A stretch of 64,000 nucleotides of DNA from Eutreptiella sp. 'Long Island Sound 2002' (Eukaryota > Euglenozoa > Euglenophyceae > Eutreptiales > Eutreptiaceae). The stretch is taken from assembly GCA_964036045.1 (NCBI GenBank), contig OZ038378.1:145045767-145109766 (forward strand), given 5' to 3'. The position numbers and the translations under genes are program-made. The first letter of the stretch is position 1; each line of letters starts with the position of its first letter. The notes under the pieces were generated by a model, which was given only the letters and a program-made list of their open reading frames with translations, searched no databases and was not told where the DNA came from. This document shows, one piece after another, positions 21,013-57,646 of the stretch.

Positions 21013-24000
21013 CGGAGCCCCTGCAGCCAAGGGCCCCAGCTAGGGCGATCGCAGGATGGTGACGTGGGAAGCGCCGAACCATCCCAGTCGGGAGTCGATA
21101 AGCACAAGGGGACTGCCGCGGGCGGAAGGCCCGGTCCGGCGCCCAGTCGCGGAGGCGGGGTGAGGGCAAGTGGGGGCACGAACCCTTGCACCCGTCCGTC
21201 CTTCGCGACCAAGAATGTGTTTGATGTACTACAGGATCTATCCGAGAGTATCGGAGGATCACCCGGACCGCAGCTGGATGCTGCAGATGGGCAGCCTGAG
21301 CCCATTGTCCACGCCCTGCACCAGTCGCTTGTGGAGCTTCTGGAACGGCCGGAGATCCTGAGTTTGCACGCCGTGCGCCGTGTCGGTCGCGAGCGGCAGT
21401 TGCATCTTAAGGTCCGTGCCCTATGCGGGGAAGTGGAAAAGGTTTTCGACGTGTTGGTCGACACGGGAGCTCAAGTCAGCTTGGTCAAGGCTGGCCTACT
21501 TCCACCAGAGTGTCTGACCGACAGTCGGAAGCCTGTCAGGCTGAAGGTGGCGAACGGCCAGTACATGGTGGGAGGCACGAAGGAAGCGGCCATCGGGCTG
21601 CAGTTCATGAACCATCGTGAGCTGAGCCGCCCAGACCTCGGCAAGGAAATCCTCCTGCACGGTCGCTTCTACGAGGCCGAGATGGACTGGGACATGATCG
21701 TCGGGTACGACTTCATGATGGAGACGGACTCCGGCGTCCTCCCGGCCCAGGCCTCCATGACCCTGTACCAGGACGACCAACTCTCGTGGCTTTCGTCACC
21801 TGAGCACCATGTGGAATGCCAATGGATCCACCCCGAACGCAATCAGCTCGAAGTGGCCGCGCTGGACACTGAGCCAACTGGTCCCGCAAACCAGGAGTAC
21901 GGCGTAAGGCCGGAAGTGGCGAGCCGAGTTGTCGTGGACTTGGGAGCTTCGGATCTGGCCCTGGATGCGTTCTCTTCAGGAACCTCCGCCCATCTGCGGG
22001 TGTGTGAGAAGTACTTGAGCGCACAGGACTCCGCGTGGAAGAAGCACTGGGGTCCGCATCAGGGATTGATGTGGATCCATTGCCCCCGTTGGGACATTCC
22101 AAGAGCGATAGCGAAGATTCGCAAAGACCGCTCCAAGGCAGTGCTGGTTGTTCCTATGGGATGCACCGAGGAGGAAAGTACCCGACATTGGGTAGCCTCA
22201 TTGACCAACATGACCTTAAACAAGGTCGTCCTACCGTCTGGAGAGAGTGTCTATCAGGACGCTAAGGGACAGCCCATGCCACCCCAGAGATGGCCAACGG
22301 AATTCCACTATGTGGATGGGGGCCTTGATCAGGCCGACACCACGGACTTCGTGTGTGTCAACCGCATCATAGCGGAGCCTTGGAGGCAATGCTTTGCGGT
22401 TCCACCTGTTGACATCGAAGAATCGGAATCGGAAGAGCCCCTCACTGAAGAGGAGTGGGATCTGGTTCAGGGGTATATGGATCAGCCCTTTCACGACTGG
22501 GGAAACCAGCGTGAGGGCAAAGGCCAGGACAAAGCCTGGTGGGAAGTGGACTCGATCGTCTCTGGTTCCTATGATGGAGATACCTTCGTAAGGAGGGTAC
22601 TGGACCACATGTCCAGCCAGGACGAGCCAATCGGGGGTAACCCACCCACCTACGGCGATCTATTCCGAGGCAAGACCAGAGATGGCCCTTTGGGCCACCT
22701 GGGAAGACCGCCTGAGCCGAAAGCGAGCGGGGTCGCTACCCCTCAAGTAAGCTCCGTGGTTCAAGTGCCCGGAAAAGCCAAGGCGGAGTCCGATGACTGC
22801 CCCAAGATCCAGGCATTGAGGACCAGGCTGAAGCAGAAGTATGGTGATACCTTCTTCAGCGGAAAGCCTGTGTTTCCGCCACCGGTGCGTGGACCGTATG
22901 GCGAGGCCAAGATACGACTGAAGCAGGACCCCCGTGTGTATCGGCACCGGGAGTTTGCCCTGAGGGGCGAGAGGAAAGAGGCCATGGAGAAGATCCTCCG
23001 TGACTTCATCCAGAGAGGCTGGCTTGAGCCGTGCCACTCCGAGTGGGCCTCTCCCTGCTTCGTCGTCCCCAAGAAGGTTGCCGGTGAGTGGCGGCTCGTG
23101 GTCGACTACCGCGGCCTGAACGCCCAAACGCAGCACGACAGCTATACGCTGCCCCTCATTGAGGACATGCTGCAAAAGCAACACCGGCGGAGAATCTTCA
23201 CGGTGATTGACCTGAAACATGGTTATCATCAGATGCCTCTCGCCGAGGAGTCCCGTGCCTGCATAGCCATGAGCACCCCACTTGGACCTCTCCAGTGGAA
23301 GGTGATGCCCATGGGCGTTACCAACGGCAATGCGGCTTTTCAGCGGATGCTGGAGAACCTGCTTGAGCCGGTGCGTGACTGTGCGGACCCCTTCGTGGAC
23401 GACGTGATCATCGCGTCCGGGAACCCCAGCATGAGCTACGATGAGCTCCTGGAGGCACACGAGAGGGACGTCACTCGAGTGCTGGACCTTCTGGTTCGGC
23501 ACAAACTCACGGGCAGCAGTGACAAGGCCACCATTGCGGTAAGCGAGGTGGTCTTCGCTGGCCACGTAGTCGGGAACGGGCAGCGAAAGCCCATACCTGG
23601 CAAGGTGGCTGCGATTGAGCACTGGGAAAAGCCCAAGACGGTCTCTGAGCTACGGGCGTATCTGGGGTTCTGCAACTACTACTCGGGGTATATCAAGATG
23701 TATGCCGAGTATGCAGCCCCCATGACGACCATGCTCAAGGGCAACCGAGAGGAGACCAAGAAGGGGTCCAAGAAGGCTCTGGTCTGGACAGCTGAGTCCG
23801 ACCGTGCCTTTGAGGGGATGAAGCAGGCGCTGCTATCCGCAGTGGGTCTGCACCTCGTGGATCCCGACCGAGGGTTCGTCCTGCCCACCGACGCTTCCGA
23901 CTACGCCATTGGCGCTGTGTTGGAGCAAGTGCTTGACGATGGGAGGCATGTGCCCGTGGCCTTCTCGAGCCGAGTCCTGGCGGAAGGCCAGAGACGGACG

Positions 24001-25995
24001 TGGACGCCCCGAGAAAAGGAGGCGTATGCCATCGTCATGGCTCTCAGGAAATGGGCTGGGTACATAGCCCTCCATCCCGTCACCGTCTGCACCGACCATC
24101 AGAGTCTGCAGTCGTGGCACAAGGAGCACGTGGACACCCCCTCAGGTCCCGCCTCCCGACGGGCAAGATGGCATGAGACCTTGGCCAAGTTCGACCTCAC
24201 GGTTGTGTATATTCCTGGAAAGGATAACACCGTGGCGGACTGTCTCAGTAGGTGGGCCTATCCCGCCAGCAAGGGCATGCAGGATATCTCTGCCCATGGC
24301 GATGAGGCTGAGACCGCTGAAGCCAAGAGGATCATCGAAATGGAGCGCCTGATGGAGGAGGAGGGTGCAAAATGCTTCGTCGTCATGGCCGCGGATACCC
24401 CCCTCGCAACGAGGGTGAGCAGAGCGGTCAGAGTACTCGCCCCTGGGGGAGCTGAGTCCGACAAGCACCTCTTCCCGGAGTCTTGCCTCCAGGACGACTG
24501 GACCGACGATTACGCCAAGTCTGAGGCCTTTGCGGCCGAGTATAGGGCTGTGACCGACCCTGATGACGGGCAGAAGTTGCCAAAGGGGCTGACTGAGGAA
24601 GATGGCAAGCTCTACCGGAATGGTAAGCTGCTAGTACCAGAGTCCCGGGTGCTCGAGCTGTGTGAAGCTTGGCACCACCACATGCTGCACCCAGGGGTCA
24701 AGAAGCAAGCTCTTGACATGCAGCGTCGGTTCGAGATCGACCATATCGTTCTCTACACCGCCATCAAGAAGGTCAGGAAGGGTTGCTCGGTCTGCCAGGC
24801 CTGCAATCCCGACAACCGGAACGTCAAAGGGGAAGCCCAATGGACCCCGGTTCCTGACCAGCCCATGGAGAGCGTGGCCATGGACGTCTTCTCCATGCCC
24901 GAAGTGCACATTGGCAAGGAGACCTTTGACTGTGTGGTTCTCTGTGTGGACCGCCACAGCGGCTATGTTGTAGCCGTTCCGGCACGCAAAAAGGGGTTGC
25001 TTGCCAAGGAAGTGGCAGTCATGATGATTCGTCATTGGCTGACCGTCTTTGACATCCCCCGCACCATTTGCAGTGACCGAGGGCCCCAGTTTACTGGTGG
25101 CTGGTTCAAGGCTATGTGTTCCCTCATGGGGATACGTCATGCCAAGAGCGTCGCCTATCTCAGCCGGTTAAACGGCCGTGCTGAAGTGGCTGGACGGCAG
25201 CTGTTCGAGAAGCTGCGCAAGATCCACATCACCAATCCACGTCGGAACTGGTTTGAGGAGATGTGGCCTGCTCTGAAGGCCCATCATGACACCCCCACTC
25301 CGGGCGGTTTGTCCCCTCACCAGATTCTGTTCGGCAGGGACCCCCTGGGTAGGGGACTTCCCTTGTCTGGTGATGGCATGGCCATGGATGCCAAGGAGTT
25401 CTTCGCGCGGCAAGAGCAAACGGCGCGGGACATCCGCCAGCAGCTCGAGAAGGAGCATGCTGAGCGTCAGAAGTCCGCCCCAAGCTCGACAGCGCAGAAG
25501 TTCAGGGTGGGAGACCCGGTGTGGGTGATCAGACCCCGCCCTATGGGCACCCACCGCACCAAGACCTGGTTCACACCCGGCGAGGTGGTGCGCAGGATTG
25601 GTGAGGACACCTACCGCATCAAGGTGGGTCACGGACAGTTCCGGGAGCGCCACGAGAGTCAACTCCGTGTGCGGGAACCCGACCTCCGTGGCCAACATGT
25701 GTCCCTGAGCTACGCCGCACATGAGGCTGATTCGGACGATGACTATGCTGAGCAGGACGACTATACCGTCGAGAAGATCCTGGCTCAGCGTCCGAAAGCC
25801 TCGGCACCCGGAGGTCTGGAGTTCAAGGTTCGTTGGCGAGGTTATGGGCCGTCCCAGGACACCTGGGGACCCGTCTCCTCGTTCGTGCCGCGGGTCAATA
25901 CTCCCTTCATGGAGTACATCCGCAAGCACAAGACCAAGATCCACGTTTCGGACTTGGCAGCACTCAGCCGGGCGATTGCAGCCAGGGGTGCCTGA
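21013..25995 (+). CDS. Element 2 Pol: protease, RT, RNase H, integrase, chromodomain
   Basis: The frame opens directly after the TAG; the first listed start (21064) is GTG, so translation may need readthrough. Numbering from 21064: protease LVDTGAQ (Asp 133); RT with FTVIDLKHGYHQ near 715 and FVDD at 777-780; RNase H with LPTDASDYAIGAV near 940 and TDHQSLQSW; integrase with HHCC finger near 1205-1245 (CSVCQAC), then Asp 1274 (AMDVFSMP), Asp 1338 (CSDRGPQF) and Glu 1374, the D,D-35-E spacing. The C-terminus has a chromodomain (YTVEKIL, VRWRGYGPSQDTWGP, near 1565-1615). A chromodomain defines chromoviruses and can direct insertion to marked chromatin. All catalytic residues are present. Confidence 0.92.
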   Translation, partial: RSPCSQGPQLGRSQDGDVGSAEPSQSGVDKHKGTAAGGRPGPAPSRGGGVRASGGTNPCTRPSFATKNVFDVLQDLSESIGGSPGPQLDAADGQPEPIVHALHQSLVELLERPEILSLHAVRRVGRERQLHLKVRALCGEVEKVFDVLVDTGAQVSLVKAGLLPPECLTDSRKPVRLKVANGQYMVGGTKEAAIGLQFMNHRELSRPDLGKEILLHGRFYEAEMDWDMIVGYDFMMETDSGVLPAQASMTLYQDDQLSWLSSPEHHVECQWIHPERNQLEVAALDTEPTGPANQEYGVRPEVASRVVVDLGASDLALDAFSSGTSAHLRVCEKYLSAQDSAWKKHWGPHQGLMWIHCPRWDIPRAIAKIRKDRSKAVLVVPMGCTEEESTRHWVASLTNMTLNKVVLPSGESVYQDAKGQPMPPQRWPTEFHYVDGGLDQADTTDFVCVNRIIAEPWRQCFAVPPVDIEESESEEPLTEEEWDLVQGYMDQPFHDWGNQREGKGQDKAWWEVDSIVSGSYDGDTFVRRVLDHMSSQDEPIGGNPPTYGDLFRGKTRDGPLGHLGRPPEPKASGVATPQVSSVVQVPGKAKAESDDCPKIQALRTRLKQKYGDTFFSGKPVFPPPVRGPYGEAKIRLKQDPRVYRHREFALRGERKEAMEKILRDFIQRGWLEPCHSEWASPCFVVPKKVAGEWRLVVDYRGLNAQTQHDSYTLPLIEDMLQKQHRRRIFTVIDLKHGYHQMPLAEESRACIAMSTPLGPLQWKVMPMGVTNGNAAFQRMLENLLEPVRDCADPFVDDVIIASGNPSMSYDELLEAHERDVTRVLDLLVRHKLTGSSDKATIAVSEVVFAGHVVGNGQRKPIPGKVAAIEHWEKPKTVSELRAYLGFCNYYSGYIKMYAEYAAPMTTMLKGNREETKKGSKKALVWTAESDRAFEGMKQALLSAVGLHLVDPDRGFVLPTDASDYAIGAVLEQVLDDGRHVPVAFSSRVLAEGQRRTWTPREKEAYAIVMALRKWAGYIALHPVTVCTDHQSLQSWHKEHVDTPSGPASRRARWHETLAKFDLTVVYIPGKDNTVADCLSRWAYPASKGMQDISAHGDEAETAEAKRIIEMERLMEEEGAKCFVVMAADTPLATRVSRAVRVLAPGGAESDKHLFPESCLQDDWTDDYAKSEAFAAEYRAVTDPDDGQKLPKGLTEEDGKLYRNGKLLVPESRVLELCEAWHHHMLHPGVKKQALDMQRRFEIDHIVLYTAIKKVRKGCSVCQACNPDNRNVKGEAQWTPVPDQPMESVAMDVFSMPEVHIGKETFDCVVLCVDRHSGYVVAVPARKKGLLAKEVAVMMIRHWLTVFDIPRTICSDRGPQFTGGWFKAMCSLMGIRHAKSVAYLSRLNGRAEVAGRQLFEKLRKIHITNPRRNWFEEMWPALKAHHDTPTPGGLSPHQILFGRDPLGRGLPLSGDGMAMDAKEFFARQEQTARDIRQQLEKEHAERQKSAPSSTAQKFRVGDPVWVIRPRPMGTHRTKTWFTPGEVVRRIGEDTYRIKVGHGQFRERHESQLRVREPDLRGQHVSLSYAAHEADSDDDYAEQDDYTVEKILAQRPKASAPGGLEFKVRWRGYGPSQDTWGPVSSFVPRVNTPFMEYIRKHKTKIHVSDLAALSRAIAARGA

Positions 25996-39926: not shown

Positions 39927-42900
39927 TTAGCTGTACCGACACCTCTTGGGCCAGTTCTCTGAGTTGTCCTCATTTAATTCCTCTGAAATGTGGGACCCCC
40001 CCGAGCAGTTTGAATCCGTGTCATACGAGTCAGGCATTTCCTGCAGTCCCAACTCCCCCCAGATATCCTGCACTGATTTTTGGTTCATGACACATTCATA
40101 TGCCTTTCTCGCTCCCTTGGACGCCTTGGCGTCTGCATGCTCATTTCCCGTGACCCCCACATGTGACGGCACCCATAGCACATCGACATTGTCCCCTAGT
40201 AGCTGCCACTGCCCCCACAAATCCTCCCACAGATCAACATGCGCCAGCGGTCCCCTGGAGCCCGCCCATTTGTGCCTGGACCACTTGTTGCATTTTCCTG
40301 TTAACCCTTTATACACCAGTTCCGAGTCTGTCACCACCAGGAGAGGCCGTCCGGGGCATTTATGATATACAGCCCGAAGGGCTGCTCTCAGCTCTGCCCG
40401 AGTTATAGATTGCCGCTCTGTGTTCAATAGCGGCAGCTCCTCATTGCGAGCGTCATTGTCCCCAAACCACACACCATAGCCTGCATGATGCACACCACCT
40501 GTCTCCTGCTTGGACCCATCTACAAAAGCCACATCCCATCCTTGCTGTGCTTTAGCGTCAATTCTCTGCAGCAGGCCCGGCAAAACCGATGCCCATTTTG
40601 CCTTTTTTGGCACTTGTACCCCCCGTCCTCTGACAATTGCCCCCTGTGGCTGCATGGAGGGAAATGGCTGATCTCCATCCAAGAATTTCCTTAGACAGTT
40701 GCACAGATGCTTGGCCTCTTGCCTCACAAATGATGACTGTGGTGCTGACGCCCACACCTCTACAAGTGTCATCCAGGCTACTACAAAGTCAGGCATTGCC
40801 ACCGACAGCGATCTAAATTTTGCATCACATCGCAGGACCCAGGACGCTCTCGCCGCCGCCCATAGCGCCAGTCCTTGCGTGGTGCTCAGCGATAACAGTG
40901 GCTGAGCCACAAGCAACGTATCCATGGGGCACATGGCCCCGTCTCGGCCCCATACCGGGCCAAAGGCTTTACGCACAATATCCACGGCCACTGGCCAGAA
41001 TTTGCACGCTGCAAGCACATGTTTGATAGTTTCGGGTACAGAGCATAAAATGCAGTTGGGCTGATGATATGCGTGCTGCGTGCGCGCCCCCACTGCTAGC
41101 TTTTTCCACAGCGCCCTTGGCATGAAATCTCGTTGCGCCCCCGGTAGCTTGAGTTGCGCTAACTGTTCCCACACCTCTGGCTCCTGCCGTTTTTGTGGCG
41201 GCTCCAGCGGGCAAAGCAGTGCTAGCATTTTCTGATTCGGTTGCGTCCACACTTTAGGCAAATCCTGCACCGGTAAAGCAAGCACTTGTGGTATTTTCGT
41301 CCGATACACCGGCGTCCATGTCGGAGGTAGTTTCACCGCCGCCTGCAACTCTCCTCCCTCCACAATTTGTGCCAAAGTGCTAATCCCCTTGCGCACGAGA
41401 CTCGGAGAATAATAGGTATGCCCCAATTTGTTTCTGAAGAGCACGTTGTGCCACAGCGGCATGTTGCTGGGTATTCCCACCAAGGGCGGAGCTGCCGCCC
41501 GCTGGCGCAACCGCGAAAACATGAGCACTGATGCTTGCAGCCACGTTCGCGCGCTCATTTTTACCACAGCTAGCTGCAGATATGGCAAGAAAGATGGCCT
41601 CAGGGACAGCCCAATTGACTCCGCCCACTGTTCGAAATTCGCTACCCATTGGCCTGAGAAGCACACTTTATCCTTTAGAACAGTTTGGAACAAGCGCCCA
41701 TACTGAAATCGCACCCAGACAGCCAGTGGGTACGTCCACACTCCACCCTGGTTGTACGGCAGCGCCAACATCGCTGGGCTGAGGTCCCACGTGGAGATCC
41801 CCAAGGCAATTTTGAATATAACATTGAGAGTCGTCAACACCTTCTGTGATGGTTCATACACTTGTGCTGTTAACTGCACCACAGGCTGCACCCACACCTT
41901 GTAGATTTCAGCACGTTCCCACAGATCCAATGGTAATGTTTTCAGAAAAGTCGCCCTGGACTTCATTTTAGCCATTGGACCAGCATAAGCCTGCTCCGCA
42001 TTCACCTGTCCAATTAAAACACCCAGGTACTTGACTCTTTCCCGCACTTCCAACCCAACATAGCGCTCTGGCAACGGACCGCACACCCGTTTGAGTACCG
42101 CAAAAGACTTGGACGGATTGACATGTAGTCCCGAGAACTTCCCGAACTCATTGAGCAGACTCATAGCTCGTTCTGCCTGTTTCAGAGCTTCCTCATCCCC
42201 CCCAGGTATCCATATTAATAAGTCATCTGCATACAGCATTAGCTGCGCTTCCGGACACCGTTTCCGGAACTGGAACACCAGGTAGACTGTTAGTAACGCA
42301 AAGATTGGCGGAGATAGTGGGTCGCCTTGGCGAATCCCAGACTCCGGCTGCATGGAAATGCCAGGAACCACACCATTGTCCACACAGAACTGCACCTGTC
42401 CTGACAGTGAATGCACTAGAAGCTCTGTGATCTCAGTCGGCATTCCCAAGAACTGCATGCCTGCTGCAAAGAAGCTGTGTGATACTGAATCATAAGCTTT
42501 GGCGAAGTCCACTGACAGAAATGTGCCCTCTGTCTCCGAGTGCCACAGGCCCTTGGCGTTTATTATGTGCTGGAGCATTTGTCTATTTTTTAAAAACCCC
42601 TTTTGGGCTGGTGGCACTGCTACCTGCAACGCGTCCTCTATGAGGACTAGGATGGTTGTAGCCATCCATTTCCAAATCACCGTCTGTAATGCAATAGGTC
42701 GCATCTCGCCAACTGTGTCCGCTGCCCGACCCTTTGGTATATTTTGCTGCAAGCTCACCAGCCATTGTGCTGGCACCTGACGCTGTTGAAGACAACTTTT
42801 GATCGCCATAGTCATAGGAGGGATGAACACCTCTGCCATTGCTGAGTAGACCTCAACCGGGATCCCGTCTAATCCCGGCGACGATCCCTTCTTCATGCGC

Positions 42901-44453
42901 TCGAGCGCAGCCTGCACCGTGTCCTCGGACACTTCCTTTGTCAGCTTGGGCAATGCCTGTCGCACCCTGCGCGGTATCCCCAGACCTTCCATCCACTCTC
43001 TGCACTGTTCTACCGACTGGTCTGGTTTTTTCATGACTTGCTCCCAGAATTCCTTAAATGCGGTCGCGATGTCTTGCGGTCGTGTGCAGTACACCCCCTG
43101 TTTGTTCTTGATACCATACGGCTGCCTCTTGGCTTGCAACTCCCTCAATTGCACATGTACCTTCCTCCGGCGTTCAGCCTGTGCAGCAGCCTCTTGCCGC
43201 TTGCTGAGAAGCTCCTCCTTGAGCATATGACACAGTGATTGCCTTTGAGAGTCTTTGGCCTCCCGGTCAGCATATACCACCAGCAACTGGTACGCCTGAG
43301 CTGATGTTTCAGGGCAGACCCCTTTGTCTGCCAAATATTCCCACCCAGCCGGGACCACCCTTCCGGGGGATGACAATCGCAGAATGCCCTGTATCGGCAA
43401 GTGATCTTCTCGTGGATTCATTCGTCGCCACTGGACCCCTTGCTCTTGAATGATTGCCTCAGCTTCTTTTTTTTTTTTTTTTTTTGACTGAATGACTGCC
43501 TCGGCTTCATTCCACCACTGGAACACATTTTGCGAGTCTGGCGCCTGCAATCCCTGCAACAGACCTCGTAGGTTGTCCACTGCTGACTGATCACTTAACA
43601 TTTCTGTTGGGAACCGCAGACGCGGTTGCACCCTGCGCATCGGCGGTTGCTCAAATTGCACCACCACTGCCTTGTGGTCGGAAGCCACTGCTGTTGTGGT
43701 GTACACTCCTTGGACATATTCCCGTAGGGAGTCTGCCACATGCACCCTGTCTAGTCGTCTGGGCTTCCATCTCACCTCAGGCTTCTGCACCCACCCGTAC
43801 GTGAACCCATTCGGGCGGTCATCACACTCGCCATACAGGACATCCCACGCATCATGCAACTTACACTTTTCCAGTACCTGGACCTCCTGCTGCCTAGCCT
43901 TGTCATTGAGCTGTGTTTTTAATTTACTTTCCTTCATTCCTTCACTGTCCACTCCCGGAATTATATGGGAGTTGTGATCGCACAGCGCGATCAGTGGGGC
44001 CCCTGCTGGGCTCAATCGCCTTCCAAGTTGCTCCCATTGTTTTTGTCGCTGAGGCGCATCGTGATGTAAATGCCCCGCGAGCACTTGTATGGAGTCCCCC
44101 GACACATGCTTGAGCACAGCTACAATAAGTCGATGTCCAATGTACTCCGCCGACTGCAATTCCCACACTGGGGTCCTCCACATTAATAACACCCCACCAC
44201 GCATGTTAGTTGGGGTCGGCACTGCCGCCAACCCATACCCTCGCTTCTCCGCCCACAGCTTTTGCGAATCGAGCACCGGTTGTGTGGTGATATGGTGCTC
44301 CTGCACTGCCGCTATGTCCACATGATGCTGTCTCAGCATACGGATCAACACAACTTTACGCATTTCCGCCTTATCCGGTGGCTTCCTATGCCACCCATTG
44401 ACGTTGGTGGTTACCGCCGCCCAACGTCGGCTCATTAAGGAAAGAGAGATCAT
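39927..44453 (-). CDS. LINE-B ORF2: APE endonuclease, reverse transcriptase, CCHC, RNase H
   Basis: The 1,508-residue protein starts at an ATG whose ATGA overlaps the ORF1 stop. Residues 1-260 are an APE nuclease (TTNVNGW, AVQEHH, CDHNS, VASDHKAVVV). The RT spans about 530-770, with FLSVDFAKAYDSVSH, GIRQGDPLSPPIF and the catalytic YADD near 743. A CCHC knuckle CILCSVPETIKHVLAAC lies near 1134. RNase H follows near 1313-1460 with FVDGS, TRAELRA, VVTDSELVY and VPSHVGVTGNEHAD, all four acidic residues and the final His present. A Lys run near residue 325 is encoded by a long A tract. This order fits RNase-H-bearing L1/I-group LINEs. The enzyme looks fully functional. Confidence 0.93.
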   Translation of the reverse strand: MISLSLMSRRWAAVTTNVNGWHRKPPDKAEMRKVVLIRMLRQHHVDIAAVQEHHITTQPVLDSQKLWAEKRGYGLAAVPTPTNMRGGVLLMWRTPVWELQSAEYIGHRLIVAVLKHVSGDSIQVLAGHLHHDAPQRQKQWEQLGRRLSPAGAPLIALCDHNSHIIPGVDSEGMKESKLKTQLNDKARQQEVQVLEKCKLHDAWDVLYGECDDRPNGFTYGWVQKPEVRWKPRRLDRVHVADSLREYVQGVYTTTAVASDHKAVVVQFEQPPMRRVQPRLRFPTEMLSDQSAVDNLRGLLQGLQAPDSQNVFQWWNEAEAVIQSKKKKKKEAEAIIQEQGVQWRRMNPREDHLPIQGILRLSSPGRVVPAGWEYLADKGVCPETSAQAYQLLVVYADREAKDSQRQSLCHMLKEELLSKRQEAAAQAERRRKVHVQLRELQAKRQPYGIKNKQGVYCTRPQDIATAFKEFWEQVMKKPDQSVEQCREWMEGLGIPRRVRQALPKLTKEVSEDTVQAALERMKKGSSPGLDGIPVEVYSAMAEVFIPPMTMAIKSCLQQRQVPAQWLVSLQQNIPKGRAADTVGEMRPIALQTVIWKWMATTILVLIEDALQVAVPPAQKGFLKNRQMLQHIINAKGLWHSETEGTFLSVDFAKAYDSVSHSFFAAGMQFLGMPTEITELLVHSLSGQVQFCVDNGVVPGISMQPESGIRQGDPLSPPIFALLTVYLVFQFRKRCPEAQLMLYADDLLIWIPGGDEEALKQAERAMSLLNEFGKFSGLHVNPSKSFAVLKRVCGPLPERYVGLEVRERVKYLGVLIGQVNAEQAYAGPMAKMKSRATFLKTLPLDLWERAEIYKVWVQPVVQLTAQVYEPSQKVLTTLNVIFKIALGISTWDLSPAMLALPYNQGGVWTYPLAVWVRFQYGRLFQTVLKDKVCFSGQWVANFEQWAESIGLSLRPSFLPYLQLAVVKMSARTWLQASVLMFSRLRQRAAAPPLVGIPSNMPLWHNVLFRNKLGHTYYSPSLVRKGISTLAQIVEGGELQAAVKLPPTWTPVYRTKIPQVLALPVQDLPKVWTQPNQKMLALLCPLEPPQKRQEPEVWEQLAQLKLPGAQRDFMPRALWKKLAVGARTQHAYHQPNCILCSVPETIKHVLAACKFWPVAVDIVRKAFGPVWGRDGAMCPMDTLLVAQPLLSLSTTQGLALWAAARASWVLRCDAKFRSLSVAMPDFVVAWMTLVEVWASAPQSSFVRQEAKHLCNCLRKFLDGDQPFPSMQPQGAIVRGRGVQVPKKAKWASVLPGLLQRIDAKAQQGWDVAFVDGSKQETGGVHHAGYGVWFGDNDARNEELPLLNTERQSITRAELRAALRAVYHKCPGRPLLVVTDSELVYKGLTGKCNKWSRHKWAGSRGPLAHVDLWEDLWGQWQLLGDNVDVLWVPSHVGVTGNEHADAKASKGARKAYECVMNQKSVQDIWGELGLQEMPDSYDTDSNCSGGSHISEELNEDNSENWPKRCRYS

Positions 44454-46084
44454 CGCTTTCGCTTGTTGAACTTCAGATCCACATCACACTCCATGGCAGC
44501 CGACGACGCCACTGACGTGGAGGCACCAGACGATGCCACTGAACTGTAGCTACGCGACGAGGACACGAACGCACTACTGGAGCCTGCTCCCCCTTTGCCT
44601 CTTCCTTTGCCTCCACCTTTAGGATTGCCTCGCTCCCTACGCATGGCATACTCAGGTTGAGAAATGACCTGCATCAGGAAGTCTCCTTCGGATCCTCGAA
44701 ACACAGATCCCAGAATTTTGGGCGTTTCTGCCTGCGGCACACACACTTTCCACGTGAGGGTGCGTATCTCACCCACCAACCATCTCATGCGTCGCACAAT
44801 AAGTTTCTCAACTTCAGAGGTTTGCATGATTGCCACGATCGCCTTTTCCCCCCACCACGGCGGCACATTGATCAGGAACAAGTTATCTGCCGGTCCCCAC
44901 TCAGCTGGCGGCTGTATGTACGTGTCACCCTGGCCAACAAACTCTCCTGAACCCTCATCTTTGAATTTAAGGCCATACTGCGAGGAGCACTTGTCCAACT
45001 GTTCCACCAGCACGTTGTGCGCAGCGTCAGACAGTCCCAGTCGAACTTTATTGTACCCGACCACTTGAATAGCCACACCCGATTGTGCTGCCAAGAGCCC
45101 ATTGGGCCGGAGCTCCCAAAACAGCGACAGCAGACAGGCAAACATAAACGGTGCGTGTTTCTCACGTACCTCCGCACCGACGTAAACTTCAAACCTTCTT
45201 GGAAGATCGTCCACCGCGTCCCCCTGATACCATTTCAGCGGCATGATGCCAAACCGGGCTCTATTGCCATACAGTCGCACAAGCTCGTGCGCATGGTCTA
45301 AAGACAATTGGCAAAATAGGTATTTGGACTGTCCCGGATCTGCCCCAGGAACCAGCACCGCCTCCGTTTTCTGAATAGACAGACTGTCAAAAAGTTCCTG
45401 CTCCCACTGTACATGGTACTGAAGTACCATCATCTTCTCTTCCTCCTTTGGCACCTTGAAGACTATAACATTGGGCTCATCCCCCGGGGCAAACATGCGA
45501 ATTTGCCGGAATTTAGGCTGGGCACGCGTCAGCCTGCTCGCAGTTGTGGTATGAATTACCCATACTGAATACTGCTGTTTCTTGGTAATCAGAGGCCTGT
45601 CTGCCAGCTGTAGCATCGCTGGATTGACTGTCACGCTCTCCTTGACAGTCAGAGCTCTGTTCAAGAACACATCTGGATTGTCACAGACCCCTTCAAGCAG
45701 CACCAATGAGATTTTCCCCACCGCTCGCAGATTCTCCGTAAGCATAGCAACAGCCCTGTTGATATTCGCAATTTCAGACATATGAGCACATAGAACAATG
45801 TAGGGCTCCTGGCCCCGGAAAGCTTTTTGTACCGTGGCGGAGTCAGACTTTAGCAGAGATGCCAGCTTGTAGGACGGGACAGTGTCCGCAATGGAAGTAC
45901 CAGCCCTCAGAAAAAACTCTTCTTGAATGAAATAGTCAGCATCATCAATCCCAGTGAAAGTAGCAAGCTGCTTGCTATCCGTCTCCACGAGAACATCTTC
46001 TCCCTGAGTGCGATCCATCACTCGGGTGTCGGCACTGGCGCGGCCTGTGGACCCGGGCGCTTTCGCTACGGTTGTACGTTTCAT
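44450..46084 (-). CDS. LINE-B ORF1 protein
   Basis: A 544-residue ORF sits where LINE ORF1 (an RNA-binding chaperone in known families) belongs. It ends in a Gly/Lys/Arg-rich stretch (GGGKGRGKGG, near residue 490), then a Ser-rich tail and a basic KFNKRKR end, consistent with nucleic-acid binding or nuclear import. I recognise no RRM, zinc knuckle or esterase. The stop TGA and the ORF2 ATG overlap as ATGA, suggesting termination-reinitiation. The start ATG at 46084 overlaps the stop of an upstream ORF in the same way. Confidence 0.75.
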   Translation of the reverse strand: MKRTTVAKAPGSTGRASADTRVMDRTQGEDVLVETDSKQLATFTGIDDADYFIQEEFFLRAGTSIADTVPSYKLASLLKSDSATVQKAFRGQEPYIVLCAHMSEIANINRAVAMLTENLRAVGKISLVLLEGVCDNPDVFLNRALTVKESVTVNPAMLQLADRPLITKKQQYSVWVIHTTTASRLTRAQPKFRQIRMFAPGDEPNVIVFKVPKEEEKMMVLQYHVQWEQELFDSLSIQKTEAVLVPGADPGQSKYLFCQLSLDHAHELVRLYGNRARFGIMPLKWYQGDAVDDLPRRFEVYVGAEVREKHAPFMFACLLSLFWELRPNGLLAAQSGVAIQVVGYNKVRLGLSDAAHNVLVEQLDKCSSQYGLKFKDEGSGEFVGQGDTYIQPPAEWGPADNLFLINVPPWWGEKAIVAIMQTSEVEKLIVRRMRWLVGEIRTLTWKVCVPQAETPKILGSVFRGSEGDFLMQVISQPEYAMRRERGNPKGGGKGRGKGGAGSSSAFVSSSRSYSSVASSGASTSVASSAAMECDVDLKFNKRKR

Positions 46085-46107
46085 TCACCCCACACGGGGT
46101 TGCACAT
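46081..46107 (-). promoter_or_regulatory. Eight-codon uORF overlapping the ORF1 start
   Basis: ATG at 46107 opens a uORF (MCNPVWGE) whose TGA overlaps the ORF1 ATG as ATGA. It is the first ATG after the leader, so ribosomes would meet it first. Its translation is inferred. Confidence 0.5.
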
Positions 46108-46124
46108 GGCAGAAAAAATACAAC

Positions 46125-46152
46125 CGAAAAAAAATGGACACTCAGAAAGTGT
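46125..46152 (-). other. Spliced-leader sequence at the 5' end of LINE-B
   Basis: The first 28 bases are ACACTTTCTGAGTGTC, CA, eight T, CG. From memory this equals the Euglena spliced leader except one T-to-C at position 17. The first A lies directly against the target duplication, so the whole leader was reverse transcribed. Confidence 0.85.
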
Positions 46153-53447: not shown

Positions 53448-56400
53448 TTAGACCGCTGACTCAAGGGCAGGGGGACGCAGCCCCTCTAGGGCCGCGGTCA
53501 GGTCCGGGTTGTCATGCTTATGCACCCACTCTTCCAGGCACTCCTCACAGACCACCGGGTAATAGTCGGTGTCCCGCATCAACGCAGGCCATTCCGTGAG
53601 GATCCACATGTAGAACTCCTCCGGCTCCATCCAGTCGCCCCCATTGCAGAAGGACCACCCACAAAAGGGGCAGCGGTGCAGCACCGACGCCACATCGCCC
53701 GCCATAAAGCTGACGGGCACTTGGTGTGGGCTCTCTGCCACCGTCACGTTGGTGAACAGCAGCGAGTTCCCAAAGCGGTACACAAAGCTGATCATTTCCC
53801 GGCGGTTGTCCGGGTCGTCGCAATACCACTGGAACTGGGTGTGGCACAGGTCGCCATCCCAGACCAACGAGCACAGGGTGTGGTAGAATCCTGCGAGTCG
53901 GTGCTCCATGAACATGGTCAGGGGCTGACCCTGCACGGCGGAGGGGGTCGGGACCGGGGGATCGAGGGGAAGGTCGGCAAAGCGGATCCACTCCTCCGGG
54001 GTCATGACCTCCTGAATGATGCAGGCACGGTCCACACTGTAGACAATGACGCGGTGCAGGTCCGGGTTGTACTCGTACAGCTTGTGCTTGCAACGAGTGC
54101 ATGCAAACGGGTGGTTCTTGATGACCTCTACGTTCTTCGTGTGGATGCCAGCCTTGACGGTGACGGTAGTCTGCACACCGGCACCCACGCACAGCTCTGA
54201 GCCGGCCAGCTGCAGGTCATTGAACGTGCAGGAGGCCTGCATGGCCTGCACTAACGCCTCCGTCCCCTGCGGTGTGACCGCACTGTACTCCAGGTCAAGA
54301 CTCTGGAATGCACGTGCAAACCGGATCCCATGTGCCAGCGCCTGTGCGCCCTCCTCCCCAACGTGATTCTGCCGCAGGTTCAGCCTCTCAAGCTGGCGCG
54401 CCTGCGCCAGCGCGTGTGCCAAGGCCGTGACACCCTCGGCGCCGATGCCGCAGCCCTGCAGATCGAACTGCCGCAGGGATTGGGAGCGGGCGAGTCCGGA
54501 GGCCAGTGTCTTGGCCCCTTCATCGGAGATGGGCACATGAGTGAGTGTCAGGCTTTGGAGCGAGGCCGACTCGGCCAGGGCCTGTCCAAGCGCCTCAATG
54601 CCCTCTGGCTCTGCCTCGCAGCATCCCACGTTGAGGCTCAAGAGCTGCGTGGCCAAGCGGGCAACTGCGGCCATGGCCTGGGGCTCCAAATGGCAGGACT
54701 CGAAGTTGAGGTGTTTCACCGTCTTGCACTTCCGGAAGGCCTCGGCGAGCACGCGGGCGGTGCCGAGCTGCAGGACGTTGTGCGACAGGTCAACGCTCTC
54801 CAGCGACGGCGCTACTTCGACCGCGCGGGCGAGTGCCTCTCCCCCTTCTGCGTCCACGCCGACTCCAGAGAGCCCGAGGACCCGCAACTTTTTCGCGCGC
54901 GCCACGCCCTCGGCGAGGGCCTTCGTGCCGGGCGCGGCGAGCGTGTTGGTGTTCAGCAGCAGCTCCTGCAGCCGCGAGGCGCCGGGGAGGGCCTCGCCCA
55001 GGGCCATGGCGCCGAAGTGCGTGATCTGGTTGTCGGAGAGGTTGAGGCGCTCCACGGAGGACCCGGGCAACGCCTCCGCGAGGCACTCCGCGCCCCCGTC
55101 CCCCAGGGAGTTGCCCTTGAGACTCAATCCGGACAACGCTGGGGAGGCGGTGATGCCGCGCTTCAGCAGCGGCAGTCGCATGCCGATGTTGGTGAAGTCC
55201 AGGTTCACGTACTTCAGCGTCGAGGAGCCCTCGAGGCACTCGCTCAGGCCCTCCAGCGCGGCGTCGGACAGCGGCGTGAAGGCCATGTTGAGGCTCTGCA
55301 GCGTCGGGGCGTTGGACAGACCCTTCGTGATGTGGTCCGTCTCGGCGGGGCTCAGCGTGCACGCCCTGAAGGCCAAGGCCCGTAGGCTCGTGGAGTGCCC
55401 CAGCGCCCGCGTGAACTCCTCCATCCCCTGATCACCGAAGGTGCAGTTCTCGAACTCGACGGACTTGATGCGTTTGGAGTGCGTCACGAGGTCCCCGAGG
55501 GCCACGAGGCCCTCGTCGCCGATGGCGAGGCCGCCGAAGCTCCAGGTCTCGATCGAGTCCTGCGCCATCGCCGCGAACGCCAGCTCGACGATGTCGGCGG
55601 CGTCAGTGCCCGTGTGATGAAGCGACACCGACCGGAGTGACTTGCTGGTGGAGATCCGGTCGCCCACGCGGGAGGCGTCGAGGCCCCAGTCCACAACATT
55701 GAGGCTTCTGCAGTGGGCGTTGGCCAGCAGGTGATAGAGGCGATGCTCCTGCTTTGAGTTCAGCGCCTTGGCGACGGCGATGTGGATGGGGACGCACCGG
55801 GCAAACTTCTTGTTCACCAGCCGCCACTTGCGCTTTGCGTTCTCAAACAGGAAAACCTCCGACAGGATGTCATCCGGGAGGAGGCCGATGCTACAGCGCG
55901 TGTGCTGAACCAGGTACTGCTGCCGCAGCTCCTGGGGGACGTAGGGCTGCGACAGGCTGAGGCCCCTCGGCGCCTCCGGTGTGGCGGCCGTGGGACTCGG
56001 TGCGCCATCCTCTCCGCCTGCATCGGCCTCGGCCTCGCTCCCCCGCGACGCGTGACGGGCGGCACTGCGCGCCAGCCCCTGCGCCGCCTCTTTGGCCGGG
56101 CCGGACCACGACGCAGGGGGCGTGCTCTCCGCGACGGCCTTTGCGGCAGAAGGAGGCAGATCCAGCGGCCGGTGGTTGATGTTCGTGACGTTGGGCACAC
56201 CGCCCCATTGCAGCTGCTGTGGAACGCTCTTCCGGAACCACATGAATGCCACGTCCTCAGAAGGCGCCTCGAGCAGGCATCCGACCGCGCTGTCTGCCAC
56301 CTCCTCCGCCTTTGGGTACACCTGCGCCAGGGAAGTCACCGCCAGCCGGCCGCAGCAGCGGTTGATGGCGTACTCCACCAGCTCCCGGATCTGGTCTTCT

Positions 56401-57593
56401 TTTGGGGTGCAGCCCCTTGCGACCACTTGGCCATTGTACACCGCGGCTGCCCCATCGCAGTCCATCAACGACTGCAGGCCGCTGTCCCCTGCCGCGAAGG
56501 CCTGGACGGGATCGTTGGACTCCCGCAGGCGCTGCAGAATGGCCGCGCGGACGGACCGGGTGCGCTCGCGCTCACGGGCCTCGTCGTTGATCTGCAGCTG
56601 CTTCACCTGCTGCGCAAGGACCTCAGTGGCCATCTGACACGCCACACGGCGCTCAAAGGGCACATAGAGGGGGCTCAAGTGATGACAGTATAGCAGACCC
56701 CAGAGCTTCGCGTCCACGATGATGGCGTGGCACATGGAGCTCTGGACCCCCTGATTGGTCAGATGCGTGAGGTGGCAAGGTGCCACGGCCCGGATGCCCA
56801 CCATAGACATATCGGGCCGCCGGCCTGTGTCCACGTCATTCTCAGGGATCAGCGGGACCTCACCAGCCCTGACATCAGGGAAATGGGTGAAGAGGTTCCG
56901 GAGAAACAGCTCCCGGGTGTACTTGGGGGTGACCTGTGCTGGCCACTGCTTTCTGTAATACACCTCCACGCCCTTGCCCTCGTTGATCTTCTCTGCAACG
57001 ACTTCGCAGTGCTCGGCCTCATGGAACTTCAGGACCATCACCCGATCATATCCCGTGTCCCTCTGGATGGCCTCCACCGCCAACTGACAGGCATGATCAC
57101 TGGTGGTGGTCCCTGGCAGCTGCTTGCTGACGTTGTGCACCAAAGCGCCCATCTTCAACTTCGACACGGCCTCACATGGTTCCAACTCTAAAAATGACAC
57201 GTTGTCGCGAGTATGGAAGACTCCAGTGAAGGCACTTCTGCAGTCGCCTTTGCCCATTTCAATGGGGATGCCCGACATGGCCTTGTATGACGCGTGGCTC
57301 AGTTCAGTCTCCAAAATGGTGTTGTAAGCAGCCTCCCCAATGATGGTCTTGAGTTTCTGCAGCAGGACCTCTTCGACTGTGAACCCCAGGTCTGTGATAT
57401 TGGCGCTCACTTGGTTGATGATGAAAGTCTTGCTGCACATGATCAGCAAGTATCCGTGCGGCTGCACGGCACTGTGCAGCCCATCGCGAGAGCGCGTGTT
57501 CCATCCTGCTTTATGGTTCTTGCTGTCTTTCCGGGACTGCGGCAAATGAGGAGGCGCCCACGGCTGTATTGCATCCAGATTGCGGGAGCTCAT
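53448..57593 (-). CDS. Phytochrome (PAS-GAF-PHY) / F-box / leucine-rich-repeat fusion protein
   Basis: The intronless ORF gives 1,381 residues from the ATG at 57593; an upstream in-frame GTG (57635) lies in the leader relic. PAS (37-145) has VQPHG. GAF (160-335) has GYDRVMVLKFHE and CHLTHL, whose Cys273 matches the bilin-attaching Cys of Cph1 and plant phytochromes, then KLWGLLYCHH. PHY (345-470) has MWFRKSVPQQLQWGG but stops inside the tongue. A Pro/Ala/Glu linker (475-560) leads to an F-box-like LLPDDILSEVFLF...RLVNKKFARCV (571-601). About 18 RNI-type LRRs follow (625-1145), then a Cys-rich tail with CxxC pairs at 1165, 1308 and 1349. Photosensors switch partners with light; F-box proteins dock substrates on SCF ligases. 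A light-gated SCF receptor is inferred. Phytochrome and LRR calls are firm, the F-box moderate. The GAF DIP motif is VTP. Confidence 0.88.
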   Translation of the reverse strand: MSSRNLDAIQPWAPPHLPQSRKDSKNHKAGWNTRSRDGLHSAVQPHGYLLIMCSKTFIINQVSANITDLGFTVEEVLLQKLKTIIGEAAYNTILETELSHASYKAMSGIPIEMGKGDCRSAFTGVFHTRDNVSFLELEPCEAVSKLKMGALVHNVSKQLPGTTTSDHACQLAVEAIQRDTGYDRVMVLKFHEAEHCEVVAEKINEGKGVEVYYRKQWPAQVTPKYTRELFLRNLFTHFPDVRAGEVPLIPENDVDTGRRPDMSMVGIRAVAPCHLTHLTNQGVQSSMCHAIIVDAKLWGLLYCHHLSPLYVPFERRVACQMATEVLAQQVKQLQINDEARERERTRSVRAAILQRLRESNDPVQAFAAGDSGLQSLMDCDGAAAVYNGQVVARGCTPKEDQIRELVEYAINRCCGRLAVTSLAQVYPKAEEVADSAVGCLLEAPSEDVAFMWFRKSVPQQLQWGGVPNVTNINHRPLDLPPSAAKAVAESTPPASWSGPAKEAAQGLARSAARHASRGSEAEADAGGEDGAPSPTAATPEAPRGLSLSQPYVPQELRQQYLVQHTRCSIGLLPDDILSEVFLFENAKRKWRLVNKKFARCVPIHIAVAKALNSKQEHRLYHLLANAHCRSLNVVDWGLDASRVGDRISTSKSLRSVSLHHTGTDAADIVELAFAAMAQDSIETWSFGGLAIGDEGLVALGDLVTHSKRIKSVEFENCTFGDQGMEEFTRALGHSTSLRALAFRACTLSPAETDHITKGLSNAPTLQSLNMAFTPLSDAALEGLSECLEGSSTLKYVNLDFTNIGMRLPLLKRGITASPALSGLSLKGNSLGDGGAECLAEALPGSSVERLNLSDNQITHFGAMALGEALPGASRLQELLLNTNTLAAPGTKALAEGVARAKKLRVLGLSGVGVDAEGGEALARAVEVAPSLESVDLSHNVLQLGTARVLAEAFRKCKTVKHLNFESCHLEPQAMAAVARLATQLLSLNVGCCEAEPEGIEALGQALAESASLQSLTLTHVPISDEGAKTLASGLARSQSLRQFDLQGCGIGAEGVTALAHALAQARQLERLNLRQNHVGEEGAQALAHGIRFARAFQSLDLEYSAVTPQGTEALVQAMQASCTFNDLQLAGSELCVGAGVQTTVTVKAGIHTKNVEVIKNHPFACTRCKHKLYEYNPDLHRVIVYSVDRACIIQEVMTPEEWIRFADLPLDPPVPTPSAVQGQPLTMFMEHRLAGFYHTLCSLVWDGDLCHTQFQWYCDDPDNRREMISFVYRFGNSLLFTNVTVAESPHQVPVSFMAGDVASVLHRCPFCGWSFCNGGDWMEPEEFYMWILTEWPALMRDTDYYPVVCEECLEEWVHKHDNPDLTAALEGLRPPALESAV

Positions 57594-57618
57594 AATGGAT
57601 GGCACAAAAAGTAGATCT

Positions 57619-57646
57619 CGGAAAAGAATAGACACTCAGAAGGTGG
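57619..57646 (-). other. Spliced-leader relic upstream of the phytochrome/F-box gene
   Basis: Twenty-four of 28 positions match the leader seen at LINE-B, including CTGAGTGTCTATT. It lies 25 bp before the ATG. A leader added in trans is not normally encoded at the gene, so this indicates a reinserted cDNA. The flanking minus-strand CATTGCCA (57649-57656) recurs after the gene (53403-53410 and 53413-53420), a possible target duplication. Confidence 0.75.

Follow-up and report, generated by a model that had tools for sequence, protein, structure and literature searches.

A phytochrome sensor joined to an F-box-like, leucine-rich-repeat module in a euglenid fusion gene

Plants couple light to protein breakdown either through separate partners or through LOV-F-box proteins such as ZEITLUPE (LOV-F-box-Kelch), and in TIR1 and COI1 an F-box is followed by leucine-rich repeats (LRR), which is a common domain order. 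The subject of this article is an unusual fusion gene of clear origin, in which a PAS-GAF-PHY photosensor is joined to an LRR array whose start is likely a diverged F-box. It lies on the minus strand of a 64,000-nucleotide stretch of DNA (hereafter the window), positions 145,045,767 to 145,109,766 of contig OZ038378.1 (C1, 201 Mb) in the 2.28 Gb genome of Eutreptiella sp. 'Long Island Sound 2002' (GCA_964036045.1, labelled G000). In a protein search, nothing outside the window's own protein cluster contained the full fusion, the 42 other matches each covering at most 58% of it, and none of the best 120 of 2061 matches in a second search had LRR domains. The open-access literature yielded no description of a phytochrome fused to an F-box or to LRRs (most subscription journals lay outside the search), which agrees with an earlier note, made from the sequence alone, that knew of no described protein of this kind. 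The term F-box is absent from the main text of an algal photoreceptor review (PMC12558739) and of PMC4525182, and phytochrome transcripts of Euglena gracilis are mentioned in PMC13422297.

The fusion gene, its second copy and its spliced leader

The minus strand holds a single open frame of 1395 codons (53448-57635), which is as uninterrupted as the earlier note had claimed, with a first ATG (M15) at 57593, exactly the end coordinate given there. The gene proper (53448..57593) thus encodes 1381 aa, but residues are numbered here over 1395 aa from a GTG that lies within a spliced-leader (SL) relict, so that the Cys at the predicted bilin site is residue 287 (273 from the ATG). Pfam finds in the protein PAS_2 (3e-8; residues 55-153, 57177..57473), GAF (1e-10; residues 181-344, 56604..57095), PHY (1.7e-21; residues 360-489, 56169..56558, profile positions 2-134 of 183) and LRR_6 (1.4e-28), all of which the earlier note had expected, but not the F-box that it had also expected.

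This is a real phytochrome-LRR fusion in a single frame, because a near-copy of the SL stands 25 bases 5' of the ATG and because the gene has a second copy, with purifying selection in both halves. That copy (G000:C1:145246476-145250660) is 99% identical, with an intact frame and the same junction, and the two form an inverted duplication about 143 kb apart that is 98% identical over more than 5 kb. Between them, the sensor (residues 55-489) shows 7 silent changes over 302 sites versus 2 replacement changes over 1002 sites (Fisher p 8e-4), residues 585-1395 show 7 silent and 5 replacement changes (p 0.013), the linker shows zero changes, and the gene as a whole shows 14 silent and 8 replacement changes (p 1e-4). 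Judged from these differences, whose counts are small, the sensor and C-terminal halves have both been constrained since the duplication, and the selection result would hold equally if the copies were alleles misplaced by the assembler.

The SL relict (57619..57642, minus strand) is 24 bases long, with 3 mismatches to the E. gracilis SL (sequence taken from PMC6242988). It precedes the ATG in both copies, and 100 dinucleotide shuffles of the window gave 0 matches. Since the SL is joined to RNA after transcription, a genomic copy of it just 5' of an uninterrupted frame points to a reverse-transcribed mRNA. The same logic has been applied to dinoflagellate retrogenes (PMC6050394). Taken with the 2.28 Gb genome size, the SL also rules out a prokaryotic window, and together with the relative P0006 from Eutreptiella gymnastica it assigns the DNA to a euglenid. 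The linker carries no second SL (its best fit has 14 mismatches, close to the 13.8 that shuffling gives on average). The simplest reading would be that the retroposed mRNA was already fused, and both halves are probably carried on one mRNA; alternatively, a phytochrome retrocopy may have been fused later at the DNA level. One stand-alone relative of the C-terminal module (L005, on C8) has its own SL relict (L005:1438-1461, 4 mismatches, 33 bases 5' of the Met) and is probably another retrogene, and the C14 relative is broken into two matching stretches with about 5.5 kb between them, which looks like introns, one stretch containing a stop.

Elsewhere in the window, an SL copy with 1 mismatch (46125-46148) stands 40 bases 5' of an open reading frame (ORF) without Pfam match, which adjoins and precedes a non-LTR-type retrotransposon ORF (endonuclease, reverse transcriptase (RT) and RNase H; together 39927-46148, minus strand), and perhaps a trans-spliced RNA of this element was itself retroposed. 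Ty3-like retroelement frames (RT, RNase H-like and integrase parts) occupy 9639-12404 and 21064-25995 on the plus strand, the second with a chromodomain. At L005, short tandem repeats (ACACCTCACGT-like) set in shortly 3' of the stop codon and run for about 1 kb.

A phytochrome sensor with altered switch residues

The sensor half aligns to solved phytochromes (best to FiDCB, 1e-54, then Cph1, 8e-53), and its AlphaFold model, built from 18 sequences, has a mean pLDDT of 77 (the PHY core and helix 512-538 are good, the tongue, 481-500, is poor) and matches PsBphP (8u4x) with a Foldseek E of 4.6e-42. Pfam, alignment and structure match therefore all return the PAS-GAF-PHY tridomain of a phytochrome, as the earlier note had it, and the Cys of the CHLT motif that the note had singled out, Cys287, does align with Cph1 C259, one of the two known bilin-attachment sites. 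The other site is altered. The N-terminal bacteriophytochrome-type Cys, just before PAS_2, is Arg48 in the fusion and Cys in all 17 genome paralogues compared, whereas none of these has a Cys at the plant/cyanobacterial position (12 have Gly, five Glu). A Cys at the alternative attachment site argues for retained bilin binding, as far as residues can tell, and the fusion also keeps His288, His318 and the Arg preceding the Cys (equivalents of Cph1 H260, H290 and R254).

Residues were compared across 39 phytochromes, 17 of this genome and 22 database matches, among which P0048 and P0049 exactly duplicate L010 and L013 and do not count as independent rows. The 17 come from the genome's 24 other phytochrome matches; split or short frames (L018, L027 and L028) were excluded, and L006-L008 repeat L009-L011. 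The Tyr at the Cph1 Y176 position and the Asp at the D207 position, present in 39/39, are Leu202 and Val235 in the fusion, and the position of Y263 (Tyr in 38/39, Phe in 1/39) is His291. The PRxSF motif of the tongue is unrecognisable in this alignment, with the tongue WGG retained. The fusion has hence lost the Asp of a salt bridge whose Arg-bearing motif is unrecognisable, and both pocket tyrosines are replaced. When conservation was counted by column in the 30 rows left after near-copies among the G000 rows and P0048/P0049 had been removed by hand, the fusion departed at 4/18 invariant columns (next highest row 2/16) and at 9/45 columns with at least 90% conservation, more than any other of the 30 rows (next highest 6/44).

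These positions matter in known phytochromes. Cleavage of the Asp-Arg (D207-R472) salt bridge, which links the bilin pocket to the tongue, is thought essential for the passage from the red-absorbing (Pr) to the far-red-absorbing (Pfr) form, and Cph1 Y263S blocks this passage (PMC9737838); the structure of Cph1 Y176H resembles Pfr, and phyB Y276H is active in darkness (PMC11924222). The substitutions examined in these two papers include neither Leu at 176 nor Val at 207. With its switch residues altered, the fusion sensor is less likely to toggle between Pr and Pfr in the ordinary way than to be locked, to switch in one direction or to answer to some other input, and the normal red/far-red switch, one of the inputs that the earlier note had considered, appears unlikely.

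The sensor, as its tree shows, descends from the genome's own phytochromes. A genome search with the fusion protein gave at least 37 matches, namely the two gene copies, 24 other phytochrome matches (three with stops), six module-only and five LRR-only. A 40-row tree, rooted at its midpoint, nests the fusion in a clade of this genome's phytochromes (100/100); its sister there, with weak placement (82/37), is the C9 type with its C19 relative, and its branch is long (1.04), the program warning of long branches meeting. Seven of ten scanned paralogues carry HisKA, HATPase_c and receiver (the HisKA of L023 being just below cut-off), and three frames stop after PHY. The fusion keeps a remnant of this architecture: residues 559-578 (SLSQPYVPQELRQQY..., 55902..55961, minus strand), next to the junction, resemble the HisKA of C9 paralogues, with 0/2000 shuffles reaching the score against L009, L012 and L011 (against L023, L025, L019 and L014, 2, 15, 97 and 170 of 2000 do). 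No Pfam HisKA or HATPase_c match was found in the fusion, and the acceptor-His segment is unrecognisable, so that the hallmarks of a phytochrome histidine kinase are missing. Several features escaped the earlier note: the duplication of the gene, its SL relict, the leftover of HisKA, the substitutions among the switch residues and the Cys-rich domain at the C-terminus.

The long uninterrupted phytochrome frames of this genome (e.g. L009, L012, L014, L019 and L025) form a large euglenid family, mostly hybrid histidine kinases among those scanned. In one subfamily (L014-L017 and L019-L024) the GAF motif is PGCTQYY, PECTQYY or PGCIQYY; a Cys there takes the place of the conserved His (Cph1 H260) in the G-H-L of the others, and the N-terminal Cys is retained as well.

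The F-box-like, LRR and Cys-rich module

The C-terminal half is a euglenid module that also occurs without a sensor, elsewhere in this genome as well as in E. gymnastica and further database proteins; identity is 57% to the C4 copies, 47% to C8 and 42% to P0006 of E. gymnastica. Most of it is the LRR array (residues 617-1143, 54207..55787), recognised by Pfam, structure matches and a good AlphaFold model (6 sequences) in which about 20 strand-helix units alternate in a horseshoe of about 28 residues per repeat; the flanking stretches before and after are modelled poorly. The array is indeed of the ribonuclease-inhibitor type, as the earlier note held, with about 20 units rather than the 18 or so counted there, and its top structural matches are ribonuclease inhibitor and NLRs, the F-box-LRR protein COI1 being at rank 27.

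The start of the module (residues 586-616, 55788..55880) is F-box-like by homology alone. At the equivalent place, a 42-aa piece of L030 matches F-box-like PF12937 (E 1.4e-4) and F-box PF00646 (E 1.3e-3), and PF12937 matches the stand-alone relatives L003 (E 0.03) and L005 (E 0.2). Short pieces of three of four family members match F-box models, the fusion protein being the one that does not, and in the full-length alignment A2 two of seven members match F-box-like (best E 0.07). The F-box-like segment of the earlier note hence stands through three homologues, all below cut-offs, and not through the fusion protein itself. On this homology the module start is likely a diverged F-box-like stretch, and a ubiquitin-ligase role is plausible.

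The array is followed by a Cys-rich C-terminal domain (residues 1176-1372, 53520..54110), defined by alignment of relatives, with CxxC pairs at 1179/1182, 1322/1325 and 1363/1366. The three pairs are kept in 6/6 aligned relatives, four of them independent (P0003 and P0005 nearly duplicate L003 and L005), and a short relative, P0045, is without the first pair. A low-confidence model shows a PAS-like order of predicted elements, which is unproven: the C-terminal piece gave no Pfam PAS match at E <= 10 (DUF7479 at E 0.23, zf-AN1 at 0.33 and C1_4 at 5.6 are its only matches), and profile search found no PAS structure in the PDB. Bacterial relatives, suggested by a bacterial PAS protein with similar Cys motifs, were confirmed by none of the searches. 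On plasmids, tblastn with the C-terminus gave three chance-level matches (E 3 to 6), of which H2, the one followed up, had no such gene; a pattern scan of genome contigs for the Cys motifs gave 70 matches, 0 confirmed; and a protein search with 246 aa of the C-terminus returned two unnamed ENA proteins and no others.

Competing readings and comparison with known systems

The explanation that we favour, with middling confidence, is an altered-switch bilin sensor joined to an F-box-like/LRR adaptor, born as a retrogene, then duplicated and kept. An endogenous euglenid hybrid histidine-kinase phytochrome would have been joined, within its HisKA, to an F-box-like/LRR/Cys-rich euglenid protein, and the mature trans-spliced mRNA would have been reverse-transcribed into the genome, leaving the SL relict, with duplication later. 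Bilin would most likely be bound via Cys287, and the sensor, whether locked, one-way or tuned to another input rather than toggling between Pr and Pfr, would set the state of the adaptor, which is probably the substrate receptor of a Skp1-cullin-F-box (SCF)-type ubiquitin ligase and as such would bind SKP1 and serve ubiquitination, gated by light or otherwise. That this bilin receptor would itself act as a ubiquitin-ligase substrate receptor with a rebuilt Pr/Pfr switch is a more ambitious version, which we consider rather unlikely. If true, the bilin would have exchanged the N-terminal Cys for that of GAF as its anchor, and the link between pocket and tongue would have been dropped, making a light, bilin or redox gate unlike that of known phytochromes.

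Several results weigh against the favoured explanation. On the side of the sensor, the branch of 1.04 and the departures at 4/18 invariant columns also fit relaxed constraint. As for the retrogene, no poly(A) trace was found within 1.2 kb 3' of the stop, and no SL relict (with up to 5 mismatches) was found at the module loci L003, L004 and L030 or at the phytochrome loci L006-L028, so that an uninterrupted frame alone is no proof of recent retroposition. Most of these points concern the F-box-like stretch: (i) no Pfam F-box model matches the fusion protein or its F-box-region piece at E <= 10, (ii) under curated Pfam cut-offs neither it nor any relative scanned has an F-box (best score 22.0 bits, cut-off 24.3), (iii) the matches span about 35 of 43-47 profile positions, with the last quarter of the profile uncovered, (iv) full-length P0006 is without F-box match, as is P0004, whose start is missing, (v) in the L005 piece, F-box-like scores below two unrelated UPF/DUF models, (vi) PDB profile searches with the F-box region found no F-box protein (one gave 0 matches, the other two, which both hit sister chromatid cohesion protein 1 at a best E of 0.27 and were taken as chance; the L030 fragment matched almost exclusively LRR proteins) and (vii) pLDDT is below 50 across the stretch, with no confident fold, while a structural comparison by VIA-align barely probes model residues before 70, where it lies.

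Points (ii), (iii) and (vii) lend weight to an LRR protein without SCF function, in which the F-box resemblance would be incidental and the Cys-rich C-terminus the output. The low rank of COI1 behind ribonuclease inhibitor and NLRs speaks in its favour too, but two related F-box models match the same place in three of four family members, ahead of LRRs as is common, and we find this alternative doubtful, if worth keeping in mind. The phytochrome part could instead be a light-independent scaffold, a module for dimerisation or for a ligand (bilin, haem or other), with the LRR module doing the work. The joint loss of the switch residues, the record number of conserved-column departures and the long branch would then be expected, whereas a Cys at the plant-type site (Gly or Glu in the paralogues), with the N-terminal one lost, looks like a kept attachment function, and the sensor half is under purifying selection; such a scaffold seems to us improbable on balance. 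A working red/far-red-gated SCF receptor, whose choice of substrate or attachment to SCF would follow normal Pr/Pfr toggling, is quite improbable. It could draw on the bilin Cys, the H260, H290 and R254 equivalents, the tongue WGG, a PHY core and helix 512-538 that are modelled well (the tongue is not) and a stretch that is F-box-like by homology, but it has to contend with D207, Y176 and Y263 changed to V, L and H, with an unrecognisable PRxSF and with what the Cph1 and phyB mutants and the presumed need for salt-bridge cleavage (PMC9737838; PMC11924222) would predict. Finally, an artefact, be it a misjoin of two genes or a dead retrocopy, is very improbable: protein search recovered the full fusion from a single organism, but two diverged copies share the junction, both frames are intact and under selection, and a HisKA remnant sits beside the junction; the two copies, selection and remnant rule out the misjoin.

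A phytochrome joined to an F-box-like/LRR adaptor would offer a one-protein route for bilin-sensed signals, and its birth by retroposition of a trans-spliced mRNA would be an example of how a euglenid can gain a new receptor. A natural phytochrome without D207, Y176 and Y263 would moreover test directly how much of the switch can be taken away without loss of bilin binding, and the 24 further matches in this genome indicate that phytochromes are a large family in euglenids.

The nearest relatives of the sensor are the hybrid histidine-kinase phytochromes of the same genome (PAS-GAF-PHY-HisKA-HATPase-REC), from which the fusion differs by an F-box-like/LRR module in place of kinase and receiver, by loss of the equivalents of the N-terminal Cys, D207, Y176, Y263 and PRxSF and by the presence of a GAF Cys, while it keeps the HisKA remnant. 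The stand-alone euglenid module (Eutreptiella A0A7S1N8M4; C4, C8 and C14 in G000) has the same F-box-like start, LRRs and Cys-rich C-terminus but no phytochrome part, the full-length ones being 42-57% identical to the fusion. Bacteriophytochromes (PsBphP, 8u4x) and Cph1 (2vea) have the PAS-GAF-PHY fold in common with it and differ in output and in the residues of pocket and tongue. A swapped output on a phytochrome sensor is also found in neochrome, PEK and other phytochromes whose outputs are eukaryotic, but in PMC4525182 theirs is a kinase, a phototropin, a REC or, as its figure legends list, a RING. In ZEITLUPE and TIR1/COI1 a sensor or ligand site is likewise joined to an F-box adaptor, theirs using flavin or hormone in place of bilin and a canonical F-box.

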